Shown: positions 48,715 to 60,883 of the stretch, one piece after another
Position numbering within the stretch: position 1 is the first letter of the stretch
Layout: each line of letters starts with the position of its first letter
Assembly (NCBI GenBank): GCA_016840405.1
Contig: JAEOSK010000013.1
Location: forward strand, 1 to 64,000
Length of the DNA stretch: 64,000 nucleotides
DNA from: Candidatus Hermodarchaeum yapensis
Lineage (GTDB): Archaea > Asgardarchaeota > Hermodarchaeia > Hermodarchaeales > Hermodarchaeaceae
Direction of reading: 5' to 3'
Program-made: the position numbers and the translations under genes
The notes under the pieces: model-generated
What the model saw: only the letters and a program-made list of their open reading frames with translations
The model's database searches: none
Told to the model about the DNA's origin: nothing

Positions 48715-49689
48715 ATGGTATTAATGGAATTAGATACAGTTGAAACTCTGGCAATATTAGGCGGAATCGGAGCAGTCCTAAGTCCAATTATTGCAGTTTC
48801 TAGATTTTGGATTATTCCTATCATATGGCAACCTTTCTACTATTTGTCCCAGCTGGGATTTCTCCTGCTCTTGCTATCATTCTTAGGCGGGATAGTAGGT
48901 TGTATAATGGCTGTAAGATCAGGGGGATTTGTGAAGAAAATGCCACAGCGGGCAGCCTGGGATCTAAAGTACGTTGGGATTGTGGTTCTTGTGGTGGGAA
49001 TACTTGCCCCCGTGAATATTTTCCAAATCATATCAGGGTCGCTAATCCTAATTGCTGGCGTTGATGTAGGTGAGACGTGGATGAAGATTCAACGGGCGCG
49101 AGGACAAACCGGTTGGCCTTATGCAACCGTGGCAACAGCGGTTGGTAGTGACTGGACCCGTCGGTTGTCTTGTCGATTTTGTGGTGCACCTCTAGTCGTC
49201 CGTGCTGTGAAAGCTAGGAACCATCTAGTTCTTCTAAAAACAAAGTGTGCATTAGATAAAACCAGCGATGTGATTCGATTGCCTCTTGCACAATTAGAAT
49301 CATGGTTGCCTTCGGTTGCTGACCGCATCCATCGCTGTGAAAAATGTGGTGAGCGAACGGTTGCACTGCTTGTTGTGAGACAAGATGCTAATTCAACGTA
49401 TCTTCATCCATACTGCCCAAATGGGCACCCCAACCGGAACTATCGAATTGTATGGACGCCTATGTATCCCCACCTAGCACGATCACCAGCTGTTGGTGTG
49501 GGAGTTCAATCTCAAATTCAACCCCAAGTTCGACCCCAAGTCATCCCAGTCACACAACCCATATCCATATCAGCTAGAGTTACACAAACTAATATGCGGG
49601 ACCTACCCATTCAATATTGCAGTAATTGTGGAGTCCGAATTAATTATTCGGATAAATTCTGTTATCGATGTGGGTCCCAAATCCAATAA
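48715..49689 (+). CDS. Membrane protein with internal and C-terminal zinc ribbons
   Basis: N-terminal TMs; CRFCGAPLVV, CEKCGERTV, C-terminal YCSNCGVRINYSDKFCYRCGSQIQ. Confidence 0.8.
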   Translation: MVLMELDTVETLAILGGIGAVLSPIIAVSRFWIIPIIWQPFYYLSQLGFLLLLLSFLGGIVGCIMAVRSGGFVKKMPQRAAWDLKYVGIVVLVVGILAPVNIFQIISGSLILIAGVDVGETWMKIQRARGQTGWPYATVATAVGSDWTRRLSCRFCGAPLVVRAVKARNHLVLLKTKCALDKTSDVIRLPLAQLESWLPSVADRIHRCEKCGERTVALLVVRQDANSTYLHPYCPNGHPNRNYRIVWTPMYPHLARSPAVGVGVQSQIQPQVRPQVIPVTQPISISARVTQTNMRDLPIQYCSNCGVRINYSDKFCYRCGSQIQ

Positions 49690-49706
49690 GCAAACGTGAA
49701 AACTCT

Positions 49707-50249
49707 ATGGTAGAATCAGCAATTCAAGCGAATTTCACCTGCTCATGTGGTGCTCCTTTCATTGTAATGGCTCTTGATCCAGCACCCAAAGATAAAATCA
49801 CCGCACTATTAGTGTGTCCACGCCATCGAGTAGGTCATCACCTAACGCTAGACCATTCAGGACTGGATCTTTGGGCCGGGGTAGTCGCGGATAATTTGTA
49901 CCGCTGTGGTGTTTGCGGACGCGAACTATCACCAGCCACAGGCGTCAGTTCCACGGAAGTTGCTACGACATTTACACTGAACTGTCCCATTCATGGAACC
50001 CAGAATAATACACGGACCATTTGGAGCGTACTTTACCGTCGGCTTCTTTCAGAAGCACGGCGACGCCGAACCCCTCCAGCTACGCCTCAACCCCCTGTAA
50101 CACCCGCTCCGACACCACCACAGGAGACTCCACCAACTACACAAGAGGGTACAAAATCGACACCCGATGCCCAATTTTGCCCTGAATGTGGACAGAAAAT
50201 ACGTCCCCGTGACAATTTCTGTTACCACTGCGGAGCGTCGACTGATTAA
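49707..50249 (+). CDS. Soluble zinc-ribbon protein with Pro-rich linker
   Basis: CSCGAPF, CGVCGRELS, TPPATPQPPVTPAPTPPQETPP linker, FCPECGQKIRPRDNFCYHCGAS; start moved to the internal ATG (MVESAI). Confidence 0.8.
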   Translation: MVESAIQANFTCSCGAPFIVMALDPAPKDKITALLVCPRHRVGHHLTLDHSGLDLWAGVVADNLYRCGVCGRELSPATGVSSTEVATTFTLNCPIHGTQNNTRTIWSVLYRRLLSEARRRRTPPATPQPPVTPAPTPPQETPPTTQEGTKSTPDAQFCPECGQKIRPRDNFCYHCGASTD

Positions 50250-52445: not shown

Positions 52446-53792
52446 TTAGCGATGCAGATACCATTCCCATTCTTGGTCGGTTACCGCTGCGTGGGTGTAT
52501 TGATACCATTCGGCTTCACGAATTTCCTGGTAGAGCTTGCTGAATTCCTGACCGAGTACATCATTGAGAAGCTTATCTTTTTGGAGTGCCTGAAGTGCAC
52601 CTTGCAGAGTGTCTGGTAATTGCTCAATCTTGCGTTGTGCAAGATGTTTGGGTGACATATGGTACAGGTCTTCAGTGACCGGTTCTGGAGCCTTAAGCTG
52701 CCTTTCCACACCATCCATTCCTGCACCCAAGAGCACAGCAAAGAGTAAGTAGGGATTTGTTAATGGATCAGGAGATCGAAATTCGATAGCCGCTTTTTCA
52801 GCTGAGGTGAAAAGTGGGATACGGATAAGGGCTGAACGGTTAAGATAACCCCAGGCATTGTAAACGGGGGCTTCAAATCCAGGAACCAACCGTTTGAAGG
52901 AATTTACCGTGGGATTCGCTATCGCTGTGATTGCTGGAGCGTGATGCATTAATCCAGCCACAAAGTGAATCCCTATGTCGGTGAGGGTTCCATCGGGATT
53001 CCCAAATAGATTCTGATTGCCTTGCCAAAGTTGGAGGTGACAATGTAAACCACTCCCCGCTTGACTGGGAAACGGTTTAGGCATGAAGCTGACTTCCACA
53101 TCATACAATGCAGCCCGTCGGCGAACTAGGAGTTTGAAAAGCAAAAAGTTGTCTGCCGCCTGACTGAGTTCTGTGAAATTCAGTTCAAGTTCTTGTTGAC
53201 TTTGCCCGTGTTCTGAATGAAGCCAAGCGGTTTCAATTCCTGCTGCACGTAGATCTAAAGCGGTTTCCAGTAGTAAATCCATTCCCTTGTTTTCAGGAAA
53301 AATATCAGCATAGCCCGCTGCATCTAATGGTACACCATCTTCTGTCAGGAAATAAAATTCAGGTTCCAATTTCACACGCATTTCCATGCCTTTAGCTGCA
53401 AGTCGTTCAACATTGCGTTTTAGAATTGTTCGTGGCGCTAAGGGATGAGGACTCAGGCTTCCATCGATGGCACGTTTGAACACATCAGATATCACAACCA
53501 CCCTGCGGGGTACACTATTCGGTAACTCTTGAATTGTAGTTGAATCAGGAACTAACCGAAGATCGGAGGTAGTGATTGTCGCGAGACCCTTGACTGATGA
53601 GCCATCGATACCGCATTGTGGAATAGGTGATGTTCCTTTTTGCAGAGGTGTGATGGAATCGATAGGGCTAATGGGCACAGTCATTCCTTTGGGAACACCG
53701 TCAATATCCACAGTTAATAATTCTACAAAATGAAGTTTCCCGCGACTTTCGCTTGAAGTTTGTTTAACCGGCATCGGAATCAATCCCAACAA
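52446..53792 (-). CDS. Glutamine synthetase family protein
   Basis: KLEPEFYFL, GLHCHLQLW, NPTVNSFKRLVPGFEAPVYNAWGYLNRSALIRIP, EFRSPDPLTNPYL. Confidence 0.92.
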   Translation of the reverse strand: MLGLIPMPVKQTSSESRGKLHFVELLTVDIDGVPKGMTVPISPIDSITPLQKGTSPIPQCGIDGSSVKGLATITTSDLRLVPDSTTIQELPNSVPRRVVVISDVFKRAIDGSLSPHPLAPRTILKRNVERLAAKGMEMRVKLEPEFYFLTEDGVPLDAAGYADIFPENKGMDLLLETALDLRAAGIETAWLHSEHGQSQQELELNFTELSQAADNFLLFKLLVRRRAALYDVEVSFMPKPFPSQAGSGLHCHLQLWQGNQNLFGNPDGTLTDIGIHFVAGLMHHAPAITAIANPTVNSFKRLVPGFEAPVYNAWGYLNRSALIRIPLFTSAEKAAIEFRSPDPLTNPYLLFAVLLGAGMDGVERQLKAPEPVTEDLYHMSPKHLAQRKIEQLPDTLQGALQALQKDKLLNDVLGQEFSKLYQEIREAEWYQYTHAAVTDQEWEWYLHR

Positions 53793-53924: not shown

Positions 53925-55889
53925 ATGAAAGGGACACAACCAATTCTCTTGGCATTGCTTCTCCTGATGCCCATTATTTCACCAATCTCATTACTTGGGG
54001 CCCATTTTAGTACTTTTCATACTCAGGAAGCCCTCCTTAGTTCCAAACCTCACGAACCATTAAAAATTGGCGGGATTTCATCAACCGTTGCTCTAAGTCC
54101 AGAAGACACAACCCAAAATATTGGCTCAAGAATTCCAGTAACCAATGGGAATTCTCCGAGAAACTGGACCATCCTGATGTATATGTGCGCTGATAACAAC
54201 TTAGATTTAGCAGCAATAAACCAGATTATCGAATTAGAAACAGAAGGGTCTACCCAACAAGTCAATGTTCTTGTTTACGTCGATTTTACCTCATCAACTG
54301 CAACCCCGGGTACAGGAGCGTTTACATACAACATTACCCAAGCGCTCCTGGGAACTTCAATTCGGTCTGAACCCCTGAACACCACTCTCCCTGTGGAACC
54401 GAACATGGGTGACCCCTCCACTCTTGTAGAATTTATCAGGTTTGGCCAAAACTACTCGGAAGCTGAAAATTATCTCCTTGTCCTTTGGGATCATGGAACA
54501 GGTTACTTAGGAGTCTGTAATGATGAGACCAGTGGAAATGATCAACTTCTTCCACATGAAATTGCTATTGCACTGGAAAATGAGACCATTGATCCGATTG
54601 ATGTTGTAGCCTTTGATGCGAGTTTTATGGGTCAGCTGGAACTAGCCTATGAAATTCAAAATGGAACAGATTTGATTGTCTTCTCGGAAAACTACATTCC
54701 TCAACGAGGTTTTCCGTACAGCACAATTCTTCATAGCCTCAATCTCATCCCCAATAGTAACCCCCTAGCATTATGCAAAGAAATGGTTGACCGATACATC
54801 CTAGCTTATTCACAAGGAGGAGAATATTCGACATACTATCCAAGTGGAATTTCTGATCTCTGTCTTTCTGTTATCAACACAACCAACATCAACAACCTTG
54901 TCTACTGGTTCAACGAAACAGTCGAATGGTTACTCAACCCTGGTGTACTTACGACGAATTACTCAATCATAAGTGGAGCACGAGGATCCACCCAACACTT
55001 TGTCATCCCTCACTTCATTGACTTATGGGACTTTTCAAACCAAATCGCGGCCCAATCAATAAATCCCGTGATCCGTAGTCTTGCAACCAATATGTCGCAG
55101 TCAGTTCGTGCAGCAATTGCTCATGAACAAAGTATGCAAGGCATACCTGGCGCAGTTGGTTTAGCAATGAATTTCGCAGATTACGAAGCGGTTCCGTTGA
55201 CGTTACTTAATGTTACTCGCTATTCTGAATTCATTAATGAATTTCATGGAATCGGAGAAACCACCATTAATTCCGTTATGCAGTTTGAGTTCGTTCCATT
55301 GAACGGGTATCTTGATGGAAAGAATGATTCGGTGTATTTCCGAATCACAGTACCGATTCCTACTGAATACACCATAGTTCTTAGACCGTTTGAGAATTAT
55401 GATGCAGATTTTGATCTCTATCTCTATGACAGCAATCAAAATCTCTTGGCCCGATCAATATCATTGAACTCTACGGAAGCGATTCAATATTCCTTGCTTC
55501 CTGATCAAATCTACTATATCAGGGTCATATCCTATCCCCGGAGCGACATTACCTACGGACTAGGTTCAGTGCACATCGACATTGTCCCTGGTTCACCGAT
55601 TAATCCCATTATCTTCGTCATAATGGGGTGTCTCATTGTCGTTGTCCTCTGTTTCATCATTCTTTGTTTCTTTTTCCTGTTCCGTTATTGGAAACGACGG
55701 GTCCTGCAACGACAAATCGAACGAATACAGGAGCCTACCGAGTCAGATAGTGGCGATTTAGTCGTTTCAGCTACTCAAACAGCATTTTGTACAGAATGTG
55801 GTGAAATATTTCCTGATAAAGCGAAATACTGTCCAAGATGCGGAAAAACCTTTGAAGGCACTGAAACCAGTGAATCGAAAGAAGGGTAG
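53925..55889 (+). CDS. Clostripain-like (C11 fold) surface protein with C-terminal TM and zinc ribbon; canonical Cys replaced by Ser
   Basis: WTILMYMCADNNLD, LLVLWDHGTGYLG, FDASFMGQLELAYEI; TM then CTECGEIFPDKAKYCPRCGKTFEG. Confidence 0.88.
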   Translation: MKGTQPILLALLLLMPIISPISLLGAHFSTFHTQEALLSSKPHEPLKIGGISSTVALSPEDTTQNIGSRIPVTNGNSPRNWTILMYMCADNNLDLAAINQIIELETEGSTQQVNVLVYVDFTSSTATPGTGAFTYNITQALLGTSIRSEPLNTTLPVEPNMGDPSTLVEFIRFGQNYSEAENYLLVLWDHGTGYLGVCNDETSGNDQLLPHEIAIALENETIDPIDVVAFDASFMGQLELAYEIQNGTDLIVFSENYIPQRGFPYSTILHSLNLIPNSNPLALCKEMVDRYILAYSQGGEYSTYYPSGISDLCLSVINTTNINNLVYWFNETVEWLLNPGVLTTNYSIISGARGSTQHFVIPHFIDLWDFSNQIAAQSINPVIRSLATNMSQSVRAAIAHEQSMQGIPGAVGLAMNFADYEAVPLTLLNVTRYSEFINEFHGIGETTINSVMQFEFVPLNGYLDGKNDSVYFRITVPIPTEYTIVLRPFENYDADFDLYLYDSNQNLLARSISLNSTEAIQYSLLPDQIYYIRVISYPRSDITYGLGSVHIDIVPGSPINPIIFVIMGCLIVVVLCFIILCFFFLFRYWKRRVLQRQIERIQEPTESDSGDLVVSATQTAFCTECGEIFPDKAKYCPRCGKTFEGTETSESKEG

Positions 55890-55895
55890 GAGTTC

Positions 55896-57680
55896 TTATT
55901 TGGTTAATGATTCGAGTTCGTTGATGAATTCTTCGGCTTGTTTCATTCCTAAAGCCCAGAATTCAGTCGTGGCGATGTCGAAGCCGAGTTCGGTGGCTAG
56001 TTCACGAGGTGAGTGGGTGGATCCAGCTGCGAGTATGCGTTTCAACTTTGGAACGAACTCTTTTCCTTGCTCCTTGTAGAGCCGGTATAATGCAAAGACG
56101 AAGAGGTTTGCGAAGACATAGGGATAGTTATAGAATCGAAATCGTGGAAGATAATAATGTACTTTGAATGTCCACTCCCACTTACTATTCGGTAGCCACT
56201 CAATGGCATCTCCATACATCATGTCACGACCTTTCACCCAGTATTTGGAAATGGTCTCACCATCCAGATATTCCCCGCGTTCAATGGCGTCATACAAATC
56301 CACTTCAAAAAAGTACCGGGCGGAAACTTGGAAAACTGACATACCAAACTCGTCAAGGACTTTGGCAAGGACTTCAAGTTTCTCCTCTTTGGTTTTGGCT
56401 TCAGCGATTAATTTGTCAACGAGAAGGAGTTCTCCGAAGATACTTCCAACCTCTGCTATGCACATTCCGATTTCTGTATTAAGAGGTTGTTGAGCCTTGG
56501 ACATGAGAACACTGTGGACTGCATGACCATTTTCATGAACCAGTGTGAACACTTCGCCCAACCGTCCATTGTAACTCAAGAAAATAAATCCAGATTTTTC
56601 ACTCAGCCAATCGGAGAACCACGCCCCGGACCCCTTTCCTTTCCGAACTACACCATCAATCCGTTTATTATCAAACATACTTGCCACGATTTGAGCGAGT
56701 TCTGGATCAAATCCGTTGTATGTATCAATTGCGATTTGTCGGGCCTCTTTCCATGAGAATTTTCGTTCAGGCATATTCGGCAATGGAGCCACAACATCCC
56801 ATTCTCCGAGTTTGGGTAAGCCCATGATTTTTGCTTTGATTCCTAAATACCGCTGATAAAGCGTCACATGATCTTGTACTGACATCATGAGAGCATCAAT
56901 GGTTTCTGGATCAACATCATTGTCGATGAGACTTTGAGTTCGGGGAGAAGGCCATTTCCGATGCTTGGTTGTCTCAAGGTGGTCGCCAGCAATCGCCCGA
57001 AGGGCACTCGCCCACAAAATCTCATCTTGACTCAATCCAGTCCACACGATGTCTTTTGCGGCTTTACGGACGTCACGATTGGGATGCTCGTATAATCCGA
57101 TAATTTCCCCGAAGGGTATGATTTTCTTTTCGCCCTCAACCTCAATTTCGTAGGTCCTCGTGGCTAGCCAGTCATTTTGGAGCTGCGCCCATGAGTCAAT
57201 TCCATATCGGTCCTTTTGGATGAAGAGGCGTTCTTCAAGATCACTCAGCACAAAGGGAGCTTTACGCTTCGTAATTTCTAAGGCATGTTTGTACTCTGCT
57301 AGGATTGGATCTTCAATGAGTTCAGGTTTCGATGCAACCAGTTGAGTAAGTTCAATTACGATAAAGGCTTGAGCTTGTCGGATTTTCATATTCATTCGAC
57401 GTGCGATATCGGCTACTTTCTTCGCCTCAGGATCAAGTGAATTTGCAGCGTATGATAACCGGGCGAACATGAACGCACCTTCACGTTTGAGGGCGTTGTC
57501 TTGATATTCTTCCAAGAAGGTTTGAACTGCTTTCGCATCCATGGTACGTACTTTACCTTTGTATTTTGTAGCAAAATCTTCTGCAGTCTTTACGTGCTGT
57601 TCCATTAACGCCTGAAGTTTGTCAATTTTTGTTGAGGGAACCAATGGAGTGAGGTCCCATGCCTCACCTTTAACAGTCAT
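55896..57680 (-). CDS. M3-family oligoendopeptidase F-like metallopeptidase
   Basis: FTLVHENGHAVHSVL (HExxH), LGEWDVVAPLP; start moved to the internal ATG (MTVKGEAWDL). Confidence 0.93.
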   Translation of the reverse strand: MTVKGEAWDLTPLVPSTKIDKLQALMEQHVKTAEDFATKYKGKVRTMDAKAVQTFLEEYQDNALKREGAFMFARLSYAANSLDPEAKKVADIARRMNMKIRQAQAFIVIELTQLVASKPELIEDPILAEYKHALEITKRKAPFVLSDLEERLFIQKDRYGIDSWAQLQNDWLATRTYEIEVEGEKKIIPFGEIIGLYEHPNRDVRKAAKDIVWTGLSQDEILWASALRAIAGDHLETTKHRKWPSPRTQSLIDNDVDPETIDALMMSVQDHVTLYQRYLGIKAKIMGLPKLGEWDVVAPLPNMPERKFSWKEARQIAIDTYNGFDPELAQIVASMFDNKRIDGVVRKGKGSGAWFSDWLSEKSGFIFLSYNGRLGEVFTLVHENGHAVHSVLMSKAQQPLNTEIGMCIAEVGSIFGELLLVDKLIAEAKTKEEKLEVLAKVLDEFGMSVFQVSARYFFEVDLYDAIERGEYLDGETISKYWVKGRDMMYGDAIEWLPNSKWEWTFKVHYYLPRFRFYNYPYVFANLFVFALYRLYKEQGKEFVPKLKRILAAGSTHSPRELATELGFDIATTEFWALGMKQAEEFINELESLTK

Positions 57681-57751
57681 ATTCTTGCCCCGCGCAGTCA
57701 AGGAGAGACCCAGGGTTAAAAGTTGAGTGGATGCCTGAAAAGTTGGCTTCC

Positions 57752-59290
57752 TCAAGCATTCAATTGGTAACAGACGCCACTGAACTGGTCAAAGATATCT
57801 CGAAAAGCTTTGTAGAGTTTTTCATAGGTGGCTACGATTTCTGGGTCGGGATTGACTTCTTTGTCATATGTGAAGATTTTTTCCAACTCATCAAAAGACT
57901 TGTATTCTCCAAGGGCTACAGCGGCAACTAAAGCTACGCCCACAGTCCCGGCGTCCTGAAGTGTAGTGACACGTCGTAATGGGACATTTAGTATGTCAGC
58001 AAAGATTTGCATCCATAAATCGCTTTTCGCGCCGCCACCACAGATATTCAGTTGTGTAATCTCATGACCCATACTGCTCAGTGCCTCTTTGACCCAGCGT
58101 GTATTATAGGCAACACCTTCGAGCACCGCACGAACCATATGGGGTCGATTGTGATCGAAGCTGAGATTCAAGAAAGCACTTCGCACGAACGGATTGATAA
58201 ATGGGCAGCGCTCACCAATTGGCCACGGTAGATAGAGGAGGTTCCGACTACCGGGTGGTACTTCTTTGGCCTGTTCAGTTACGAGGTCATAGACATCCCT
58301 ATCGGCTGTGGAGGCTTGTTCACTTTCTGCAGTGCAAACGTTTTCCACGAGCCACGCCAAGCACGAACCTGCACTTTCCATGTGACCAGTGAGGAGTAAA
58401 CGTCCCGGAATAGCACTCTCAATGGTTCCAGCCCCACACAAATCGAACTGGGGCTCTTCTTGATGTTGAGAAATCCATCCTGAAGATCCAATATACAGAT
58501 GGGGTTTCCCAGGAGTAATTGCACCTGATCCAACTGATACCGCGACGAGGTCTCCACAGCCGCATACCACTTGTGTTTCAGGTGTAAGACCTAGGCTTTT
58601 CGCTGCCTCTGGGGACAGGGTACCGAGTATGTCGGTTGTTTTCACAATGGTCGAAAGATAGTCCATTGAGAGACCGAGGCCTTCTTCAATGATTTCTGGT
58701 TCGGGTTCGTGTTTATCGATTCTAAAGTAATTCCAGATACAGGCATGACTCCAATCTGTATAGAAATCGTCGACACCTGCTTGATAAAGAATCCAATCTT
58801 TGACATCAACAAACTTCTTAGTTTTTTTGAAAATGTGGGGTTCTTCATTTTTCACCCAGGCGATTTTCGCCAAAGGATCCTTAGCCGACATCACGGGGAT
58901 AATGTTCTTTGCCATCATGTCTGGGAAAGTGAACTTGTTCATCAGCGGTGTAACATGATCTACGCTTCGTACATCCATCCAAAGGATGGTCTTACGTAGA
59001 GGCCGCCCCTTAGTGTCAACTGGGATCACTGAGGCCATCATCGCATCTACTGTGAATGCCGTAACTGACCGTGGATCAATTTTGGTTTGGGCAAGCACTT
59101 GACGGGCTGTAGTGGTTATTGCATCCCAATAAACGTGGGGATCCTGTTCTGCCCAACGTTCTTGTGGATACTCAACCTGGTATGCCTGTTGGACAGTCCC
59201 TTGCACACAACCCTGCATGTCAATAATACTCGATTTCGTTGCACTCGTACCCAAATCACAAGCCAAAATGTACTTCTTCGACACAAACAA
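57752..59290 (-). CDS. FGGY-family carbohydrate kinase (xylulokinase-like)
   Basis: LACDLGTSATKSSI, GLTPETQVVCGCGD, LNICGGGAKSDLWMQIFADILNVPL. Confidence 0.92.
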   Translation of the reverse strand: MFVSKKYILACDLGTSATKSSIIDMQGCVQGTVQQAYQVEYPQERWAEQDPHVYWDAITTTARQVLAQTKIDPRSVTAFTVDAMMASVIPVDTKGRPLRKTILWMDVRSVDHVTPLMNKFTFPDMMAKNIIPVMSAKDPLAKIAWVKNEEPHIFKKTKKFVDVKDWILYQAGVDDFYTDWSHACIWNYFRIDKHEPEPEIIEEGLGLSMDYLSTIVKTTDILGTLSPEAAKSLGLTPETQVVCGCGDLVAVSVGSGAITPGKPHLYIGSSGWISQHQEEPQFDLCGAGTIESAIPGRLLLTGHMESAGSCLAWLVENVCTAESEQASTADRDVYDLVTEQAKEVPPGSRNLLYLPWPIGERCPFINPFVRSAFLNLSFDHNRPHMVRAVLEGVAYNTRWVKEALSSMGHEITQLNICGGGAKSDLWMQIFADILNVPLRRVTTLQDAGTVGVALVAAVALGEYKSFDELEKIFTYDKEVNPDPEIVATYEKLYKAFRDIFDQFSGVCYQLNA

Positions 59291-59434: not shown

Positions 59435-60883
59435 ATGTCATCAATTGAACAAATTGGGAAAGAATATGAGAATTTGTACGCAATAATTGGAGAAGAATTT
59501 TTCAATCAGACAGCTGGACTTCCATTCGATGCTGAGCGTTTACAACAAGCTAGTCAGAAGATGACTCAGCTCTGTGAACAATTTCTCTCCAAATATACTG
59601 AACCTCGCCAAATGTATCGTGCATCCATTGAAGCACTAGCCCGGACTGCCTTTCTCCCTCATCGCCTGAAACTTAACGATGAGCGATTAAAACTAATAGC
59701 GGATCCTCATCACACCTTCAAAGAGAATCCAGTAACATGGGCATCCTGGCGTCAATTCAACGCCATCACAAAAGATGCTAAGATTCGAAAAGCCGTATTC
59801 GATCATTTCGTCAACCAAGCAGCTCAGCTTGTTCCCTTTGTCAAAAACGGATTTGATGCAATCGGTGGGGTTTATAACCGATTCGAAACCTCGCCCGTTA
59901 CCAACTACTTAGAAAAAGAAGCCTTCAGCTATGAAGAGTTAATCCAATTCCTGTCAAAGCTTGGAGATGGAGCTCGAGCAACATTTCTCAAAACTGCGGA
60001 TAGATACTCAAAGGAAATCAAAAATGGTCCCTTCGAATATTACGATGATTTCTATTTCTTCCGCAGTCAGGTATTCCGACCTTTAGACGACCATTTCAAA
60101 GGAATCGATTCGATCCCTGAGGTTCACAAAGTTCTCAGTAAGCTTGGATTCGCTGTAAATCAAATTAAGGTTGATAACAAAGATCGACCGAAAAAATCTC
60201 CATCAGCGTTTTGCTTTGGAATCCGCATCCCTCAAGATGTCCGAGTGGTCTACAAATTTACCAGCCCGGGAAGTACTCTTACATCTGTATTTCACGAATT
60301 CGGACATGGCATTCACGGTATCAGTGGTATCCCCACAGACCCCCCATGGAAACGACTCATCGTTCCCAATAGTGTCTCTGAAACCTTCTCAATACTCACT
60401 GAAACCTTGGTCACCAGCAACCAACTCTTCCTCACTGAAGATTTAAGACTTCCACCTGATGCGGCCCAGGATATCATGGATCGTAACAATTTCATGTACC
60501 TCTTTTTCTGCGTCTTCTATGCAGCCAATAGCTTGATGAAACTCGCCTACTGGAAGGAAGGACTTACCTTCCCCCAGGCTTCACAACGCTGGCAGGACCT
60601 CACTCGTCGCTTCTATATCGAAATTCCTGGTGACTATTGGCTTCTTCATCATGTGATGCCGCAATACGCTATCTACGCTCCGAGTTACATGATTGCCTCG
60701 GTTCGGGTGACACACCTCGTAAAGCATTTGGCAAAAGAGTTTGGTGATCGATGGTGGCATGAACCAAAAGCGGGTGCCTATATCTCTGAACTAGCTGCAA
60801 CTCGTGGAGAGTTTCCCATGAAAAAATTTTCACTAAATCCGCAAATCTACCTTGATCGAATTACCAATCTAAGCTTTCTTTAG
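59435..60883 (+). CDS. M3-like metallopeptidase, second and shorter copy
   Basis: TSVFHEFGHGIHGISG (HExxH); IASVRVTHLV...GRWWHEPKAG-like C-terminus. Confidence 0.85.
   Translation: MSSIEQIGKEYENLYAIIGEEFFNQTAGLPFDAERLQQASQKMTQLCEQFLSKYTEPRQMYRASIEALARTAFLPHRLKLNDERLKLIADPHHTFKENPVTWASWRQFNAITKDAKIRKAVFDHFVNQAAQLVPFVKNGFDAIGGVYNRFETSPVTNYLEKEAFSYEELIQFLSKLGDGARATFLKTADRYSKEIKNGPFEYYDDFYFFRSQVFRPLDDHFKGIDSIPEVHKVLSKLGFAVNQIKVDNKDRPKKSPSAFCFGIRIPQDVRVVYKFTSPGSTLTSVFHEFGHGIHGISGIPTDPPWKRLIVPNSVSETFSILTETLVTSNQLFLTEDLRLPPDAAQDIMDRNNFMYLFFCVFYAANSLMKLAYWKEGLTFPQASQRWQDLTRRFYIEIPGDYWLLHHVMPQYAIYAPSYMIASVRVTHLVKHLAKEFGDRWWHEPKAGAYISELAATRGEFPMKKFSLNPQIYLDRITNLSFL

Follow-up and report, generated by a model that had tools for sequence, protein, structure and literature searches.

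The gene at positions 53,925–55,889 of the window (the stretch of 64,000 nucleotides of Candidatus Hermodarchaeum yapensis analysed here, from a genome of 2.7 Mb) encodes a protein that is probably a membrane-anchored extracellular pseudopeptidase with a clostripain fold. The nucleophilic cysteine of peptidase family C11 is a serine in this protein and in its orthologs, and the catalytic histidine has gone from three of the latter; because the inactive clade is as constrained as the active paralogs, its members are best read as a C11 pseudopeptidase that would have been retained after a stepwise loss of catalytic residues. It is very likely that the protein is both catalytically dead and functional. 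From the sequence, we infer that it is unable to cleave and, with less assurance, that it functions by binding.

The protein consists of a signal segment, a C11 domain, a PPC domain, one transmembrane helix and a zinc ribbon, in that order (Table 1). An original prediction, made from the DNA sequence alone, had described the C11 framework as intact, and both framework motifs are indeed present (WTILMYMCADNNLD at residues 81–94 and LLVLWDHGTGYLG at residues 184–196, with FDASFM at 230–235), as is a Peptidase_C11 match (PF03415) over residues 86–337 that scores 133.9 bits against a Pfam cut-off of 25.8. Structure prediction, one of the checks proposed at that stage, yielded a clostripain fold: the AlphaFold2 model has a mean pLDDT of 85.1, with values of about 90–98 across most of the C11 domain and low confidence in the linker that follows the signal segment, and its top PDB match in a Foldseek search is clostripain itself (9cip, E 5.6e-23, TM-score 0.63 by target length), Bacteroidales C11 enzymes also being among the best matches. 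By profile score and by fold, the window protein thus belongs to family C11. The PPC domain (PF04151, residues 468–534) is marginally over the Pfam cut-off and forms a clear β-sandwich in the model. Note that this β-sandwich also gives fold-level matches to the p24 GOLD domains 5azw and 5azx (E about 2e-5 to 6e-5), which probably reflects a general β-sandwich resemblance. Hydropathy and the model agree with the earlier description of a transmembrane helix that places a CTEC...CPRC ribbon on the other side of the membrane, this topology being a predicted one: hydropathy sets the helix at residues 562–580, and the ribbon is assigned to the cytoplasm because the helix is followed by the basic stretch RYWKRR. 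The Zn_Ribbon_1 match at residues 621–641 is sub-threshold, yet all four cysteines (C622, C625, C636 and C639) are present.

Table 1. Position in the window of the pseudopeptidase gene, its domains and active-site codons, and the two adjacent genes
Feature	Position	Strand	Basis
C11 pseudopeptidase gene P0001, 654 aa	53925..55889	+	ORF, Pfam, model, orthologs
N-terminal hydrophobic signal segment, aa 7–25	53943..53999	+	Hydropathy
C11 caspase-like domain, about aa 77–440	54153..55244	+	Pfam PF03415; Foldseek to 9cip, 6n9j, 6mzo
His190 (CAT), catalytic-His position; kept in window copy, Ile/Ile/Lys in three orthologs	54492..54494	+	
Asp231, S1-pocket Asp, invariant in active and inactive copies	54615..54617	+	Alignment; role from PMC4850288
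Ser233 (AGT), at nucleophilic Cys position	54621..54623	+	Sequence, alignment
PPC-type β-sandwich, about aa 455–556	55287..55592	+	Pfam PF04151; model strands; Foldseek to ColG/ColH domains
Single TM helix, about aa 561–589, then basic RYWKRR	55605..55691	+	Hydropathy, model
Zinc ribbon C622-x2-C625 ... C636-x2-C639, predicted cytoplasmic	55788..55841	+	Four Cys, profile, alignment
Divergent neighbour, glutamine-synthetase family protein, syntenic landmark only	52446..53792	-	
Convergent neighbour, M3-family peptidase, syntenic landmark only	55896..57755	-	

The substitution at the nucleophile is exactly as first described, DACLM being replaced by DASFM with an AGT codon, and every detail that we checked was correct. 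The nucleophile triplet of the window protein is D231-A232-S233, whereas the histidine doublet H190-G191 is intact, and the copy also keeps Asp231 and the GFPY loop that contains Gly262. It therefore lacks the complete His–Cys dyad (HG plus DAC) of active C11 enzymes: Cys233 is a serine in all four orthologs, and the histidine is gone in three. With the enzymes of the family (clostripain, PmC11, globupain and PNT1; PF03415), the protein shares the fold, the framework motifs, a secreted or surface location and the S1-pocket aspartate two residues before the nucleophile; this residue reads Arg or Lys in C11 enzymes, the equivalents of Asp231 being Asp177 in PmC11 and Asp229 in clostripain (PMC4850288). 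It differs from them in having Ser for Cys, in the loss of the histidine from three orthologs and in its activation segment between His190 and Ser233, where residues 191–232 contain no Lys or Arg and hence no self-processing site. Such a site is also absent from most active Hermodarchaeia C11 copies and has been reported to be lacking in PNT1 (PMC4850289).

The original prediction had proposed to survey homologs for Cys or Ser at the nucleophile site, with close homologs that all have Cys counting against it; in our survey the closest homologs all have Ser. The same-genus relatives are the Hermodarchaeota MAGs H03M_Hermod_104, YT2_032, FT1_005 and YT1_028. Besides the window protein, three full-length orthologs (G003a, G004a and G001a, 50–52% identical to it) all read FDASFMGQ, so that the loss of the catalytic residue is conserved in 4/4 full-length orthologs, a sample of four drawn entirely from MAGs; in the fifth same-genus genome the ortholog ends at the contig end before the Ser site and is excluded from this count. 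The position of the catalytic histidine lies in WDIG, WGIG and WDKG in G003a, G004a and G001a, respectively, and Gly262, the conserved glycine of the substrate loop, is Arg, Arg and His in the three orthologs. All domains and the four ribbon cysteines are retained in all four. Judged by these residues, the window protein is the least degenerate member of the clade, with the cysteine gone and the remainder of the catalytic centre in place, and the order of events is best read as stepwise: the nucleophile would have been lost first and the histidine later. The three His-less orthologs group together in the gene tree (85/84). In the species tree the window genome is placed with support values of 64/57 and 53/12, so that one and two losses of the histidine both fit.

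These orthologs also bear on whether the serine is genuine. TGT and AGT differ by a single base, and the window sequence comes from a MAG, so a sequencing or assembly error with TGT as the true codon could account for this one gene. The three orthologs, however, come from independent MAGs and have Ser through TCG, TCT and TCA, none of which can be reached from AGT with fewer than two base changes; because three syntenic orthologs have DASFM with different Ser codons, a base-calling error is ruled out for the clade, and we give this explanation practically no credence. The AGT/TCN split itself is suggestive, though only suggestive, of two separate parallel Cys-to-Ser steps: TGY to AGY and TGY to TCY take one change each, AGY to TCY two. 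However, of the all-Ser columns in the syntenic neighbours, 5 of 79 likewise mix the two codon sets, and the C11 gene has 4 such columns out of 19; we therefore dropped two independent Cys-to-Ser events as a firm conclusion.

Two readings of the serine had been offered at the outset, a pseudo-peptidase and a Ser-nucleophile variant, of which the first gained from the fixation of Ser, the loss of His in three of four orthologs, purifying selection and the retention of an active paralog, while the second lost ground because the histidine is not conserved. In a Ser-nucleophile hydrolase, Ser233 paired with His190 would take the role of the cysteine and still cleave peptide or ester bonds. The window copy does contain His190, Asp231 and the GFPY loop, so that a Ser–His pair is spatially possible in that species, and the fixation of Ser in the clade by both codon sets (AGT once, TCN three times) fits selection for Ser. 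But a Ser nucleophile requires a general base no less than a Cys does, and three of the four orthologs with this same Ser are without the histidine; selection for a nucleophilic Ser predicts that it be kept. In addition, mutation of either Cys or His abolishes the activity of the archaeal C11 enzyme globupain (PMC10315481), and PNT1 C136S, although expressed, is non-functional and cannot substitute for the wild type (PMC4850289). Given that the clade does not conserve the general-base histidine and that changes of the cysteine kill other C11 enzymes, a Ser nucleophile is disfavoured and, in our estimate, very unlikely.

A pseudopeptidase that is retained should be told apart from the remnant of a redundant duplicate that is decaying or drifting neutrally. 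The progressive loss of catalytic residues and a stem branch longer than that of the active clade (0.94 versus 0.43) are what decay would produce. The open reading frames are nevertheless full-length in four genomes, all domains and the four ribbon cysteines persist, and dN/dS, which rests on the closest pair as the other pairs are saturated, is the same for the inactive genes G003a and G004a (0.067/0.367 = 0.18) as for the active paralogs of G003 and G004 (0.074/0.404 = 0.18), indicating an intact protein under purifying selection. Conservation of the ectodomain likewise matches that of the active paralogs: within the genus, the inactive copies are 62–68% identical to one another over the N-terminal half of their C11 domains and the active ones 58–65%, and 21 of the 33 columns that are invariant in 10 active sequences, the S1 Asp included, are unchanged in all four inactive proteins, with the non-conservative changes at these invariant columns falling mostly at His190, Cys233, Gly262 and Pro179. 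The least conserved parts are the juxtamembrane linker and the transmembrane helix (14–33% identity). Decay of the gene in this clade thus appears largely refuted, and we regard it as highly improbable.

The three Ser orthologs sit in the same gene neighbourhood as the window gene, sharing glutamine-synthetase family, lipid-binding-fold, radical SAM and zinc-ribbon proteins on one flank and the M3 peptidase and an FGGY kinase on the other. Near this M3 peptidase stands a second, strongly diverged M3/M32-like peptidase (59435-60883, + strand) with HEFGH and a weak Pfam match. Upstream of the C11 locus lie two overlapping, mutually related tandem zinc-ribbon proteins (48715-49689 and 49668-50249, + strand), whose order is kept in the genus and in G007. 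The sister genus is represented by YT1_014 and H02S_Hermod_124. The counterpart at this locus in G007, a genome of the sister genus, is a C11 gene with intact WNHG and DACLM and without the ribbon. Active paralogs with HG plus DAC are found at other loci (G000:C39 in the window genome, G001:C42, G003:C17 and G004:C26), so that a dyad-intact paralog accompanies the full-length Ser copy in all four genomes that have one; that of G003 is cut at its N terminus, with both catalytic positions still read. In the gene tree, the Ser clade is monophyletic (100/100), the active paralogs of the genus come together (100/99), and the two clades join weakly (63/48). We had expected the same-locus gene of the sister genus (G007b) to be the direct 1:1 counterpart of the Ser proteins, a grouping that the AU test rejects (p 8.8e-6). 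The simplest history consistent with these relationships is a single ancestral C11 gene at the locus that would have been duplicated separately in the two genera, the in-place copy having lost catalysis in the genus of the window. The active Hermodarchaeia paralogs (G000:C39, which is L037, with L036, L038, L040, L039 and L041) share with the window protein the C11 domain, the transmembrane helix and the CxxC...CPxC ribbon, and differ from it in their intact HG plus DAC dyad and their location at other loci. L037 (L037:5473-8721, - strand) further differs in carrying ~430 extra N-terminal residues of GGYALVGY-type repeats, probably a β-propeller; fragments of similar repeats adjoin C11 genes in the sister genus.

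To place the substitution within the family, we searched 228 Asgard genomes, of which 71 gave a match, and gathered the C11 domains of these and of relatives in other phyla. Both catalytic positions could be read in 154 distinct domains, 145 of which have His and Cys; Ser occurs at the nucleophile in the four proteins described here and in one Nitrospirae MAG. Among the Asgard domains, 98 of 104 have His and Cys, and Ser is confined to the four members of the window clade. In another Asgard genus, two genomes read DGE instead of DAC with the histidine kept, so the phylum has seen at least one further loss of the C11 nucleophile. More specifically, L094 (G142:C220) and L097 (G152:C7), ~1.1 kb each, read LLLDGESMASLE where FDACLMGQLE is expected, a change of Cys to Glu, and are a candidate second Asgard C11 pseudopeptidase. 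Outside the Asgard archaea, the Nitrospirae MAG (L157, 5695-8293) has a C11 domain that is split between two ORFs and reads GFDASQMGQ with the histidine kept, which may be either an independent Cys-to-Ser change or a decaying gene, and a Candidate division TM6 MAG (L173, 3109-8622) has tandem C11 genes, one with DAN for DAC beside intact copies.

The route to such a protein would have comprised (i) duplication of the C11 gene in the genus, with the copy at the ancestral locus losing its nucleophile through Cys to Ser; (ii) subsequent loss, in most species, of the catalytic histidine and the conserved glycine of the substrate loop; and (iii) maintenance of the dead copy under normal purifying selection while an active paralog resides elsewhere in the genome, the retained function being visible only as constraint. 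As S1 Asp, active-site framework and PPC domain are kept, this function is most likely capture: the C11 and PPC domains would hold basic, Arg- or Lys-bearing segments of peptides or proteins at the cell surface or, alternatively, partners or substrates of the active C11 paralog, and the transmembrane–ribbon tail would act as an anchor, possibly with a cytoplasmic contact. Binding through the former substrate cleft is a possibility to which we give slightly less than even weight. The conservation of the cleft could be partly structural, and the Arg or His at position 262 in three orthologs may change the S1 pocket or block it, which would weaken the case for a shared peptide-binding role. No neighbour at the locus points to a ligand. 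That the protein has the active paralog, or the substrates of that paralog, as its principal target is a tentative idea, distinctly less probable than binding through the cleft.

One form of this idea, an inactive subunit or decoy that forms a heterodimer with the active C11 paralog or traps its substrates, as inactive paralogs of other enzyme families do, is rather unlikely in our view. An active paralog is present wherever the full-length inactive copy is, the two have a common architecture including the transmembrane–ribbon tail, and the globupain zymogen is a homodimer that can activate in trans (PMC10315481); the inactive and active genes are not neighbours, however, and the four genomes in which they occur together belong to a single genus and represent one evolutionary event, which is thus no test of dependence.

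More doubtful still is the signalling across the membrane suggested in the original prediction, in which the protein would be a transmembrane receptor and the zinc ribbon would pass the binding of a ligand on to the cytoplasm. The predicted ectodomain, single transmembrane helix and cytoplasmic domain give the protein the layout of a receptor, at the level of prediction, and the ribbon cysteines are conserved throughout the orthologs, but the low conservation of the linker and helix and the absence of any signalling domain after the ribbon argue against relay. So does the occurrence of the same tail elsewhere: Zn_Ribbon_1 has 33 matches in the window genome, where the active C11 paralog, a metallopeptidase of the M6 type and a surface protein with a TRAP-beta-like domain all carry a tail of this type. 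On the strength of this genome survey, we rejected the ribbon as a special feature of the pseudopeptidase. The M6-type (immune inhibitor A) metallopeptidase (L194:271-2415, - strand, G000:C57) has HEFGH, a signal segment, a transmembrane helix and the ribbon tail, showing that surface peptidases which are apparently active can have such a tail; the other protein (L193:218-2068, - strand, G000:C16) has a TRAP-beta-like domain (PF05753, 31.5 bits), a transmembrane helix and a zinc-ribbon tail. A tail that active C11 paralogs have in common with other surface proteins is more plausibly a shared module for anchoring or for docking in the cytoplasm.

Pseudo-forms of the caspase clan (clan CD) are already known from bacteria and eukaryotes; here, a C11 form is fixed in an Asgard genus. 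In bacterial pseudo-orthocaspases the His–Cys dyad has become Tyr–Ser and the acidic specificity pocket is kept (PMC6426788). Like the window clade, they combine a clan CD fold, Cys to Ser with loss of His, an acidic pocket and occurrence in clades; unlike it, they belong to family C14 rather than C11 and were reported absent from Archaea, none of the 93 archaeal sequences in the survey of caspase homologs being a pseudo-form (PMC6426788). The Trypanosoma brucei metacaspase MCA4, termed a pseudopeptidase in the PNT1 report (PMC4850289), is likewise a naturally occurring pseudopeptidase of clan CD that coexists with active paralogs, but it is of the metacaspase family and from a eukaryote. For C11 itself, the globupain study of 2023 states a His/Cys dyad for all proteases of the family (PMC10315481), and we found no report of an archaeal C11 pseudopeptidase in the open-access literature.

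Alongside an active paralog and an intact gene at the same locus in the sister genus, this clade includes an intermediate in which Cys alone is lost; the order of events can thus be read, and the proteins form a clean set with which to ask what a dead clostripain does. In annotations from which protein degradation by Asgard archaea is to be inferred, such genes should not be labelled active extracellular proteases. The most far-reaching explanation, a clade-wide archaeal clostripain pseudopeptidase that serves as surface peptide receptor or regulatory partner of the active paralog and whose nucleophile was perhaps lost twice, is one that we advance only tentatively and consider somewhat unlikely as a whole; if true, it would imply recurrent selection in Asgard archaea for a binding-only protein of caspase fold.
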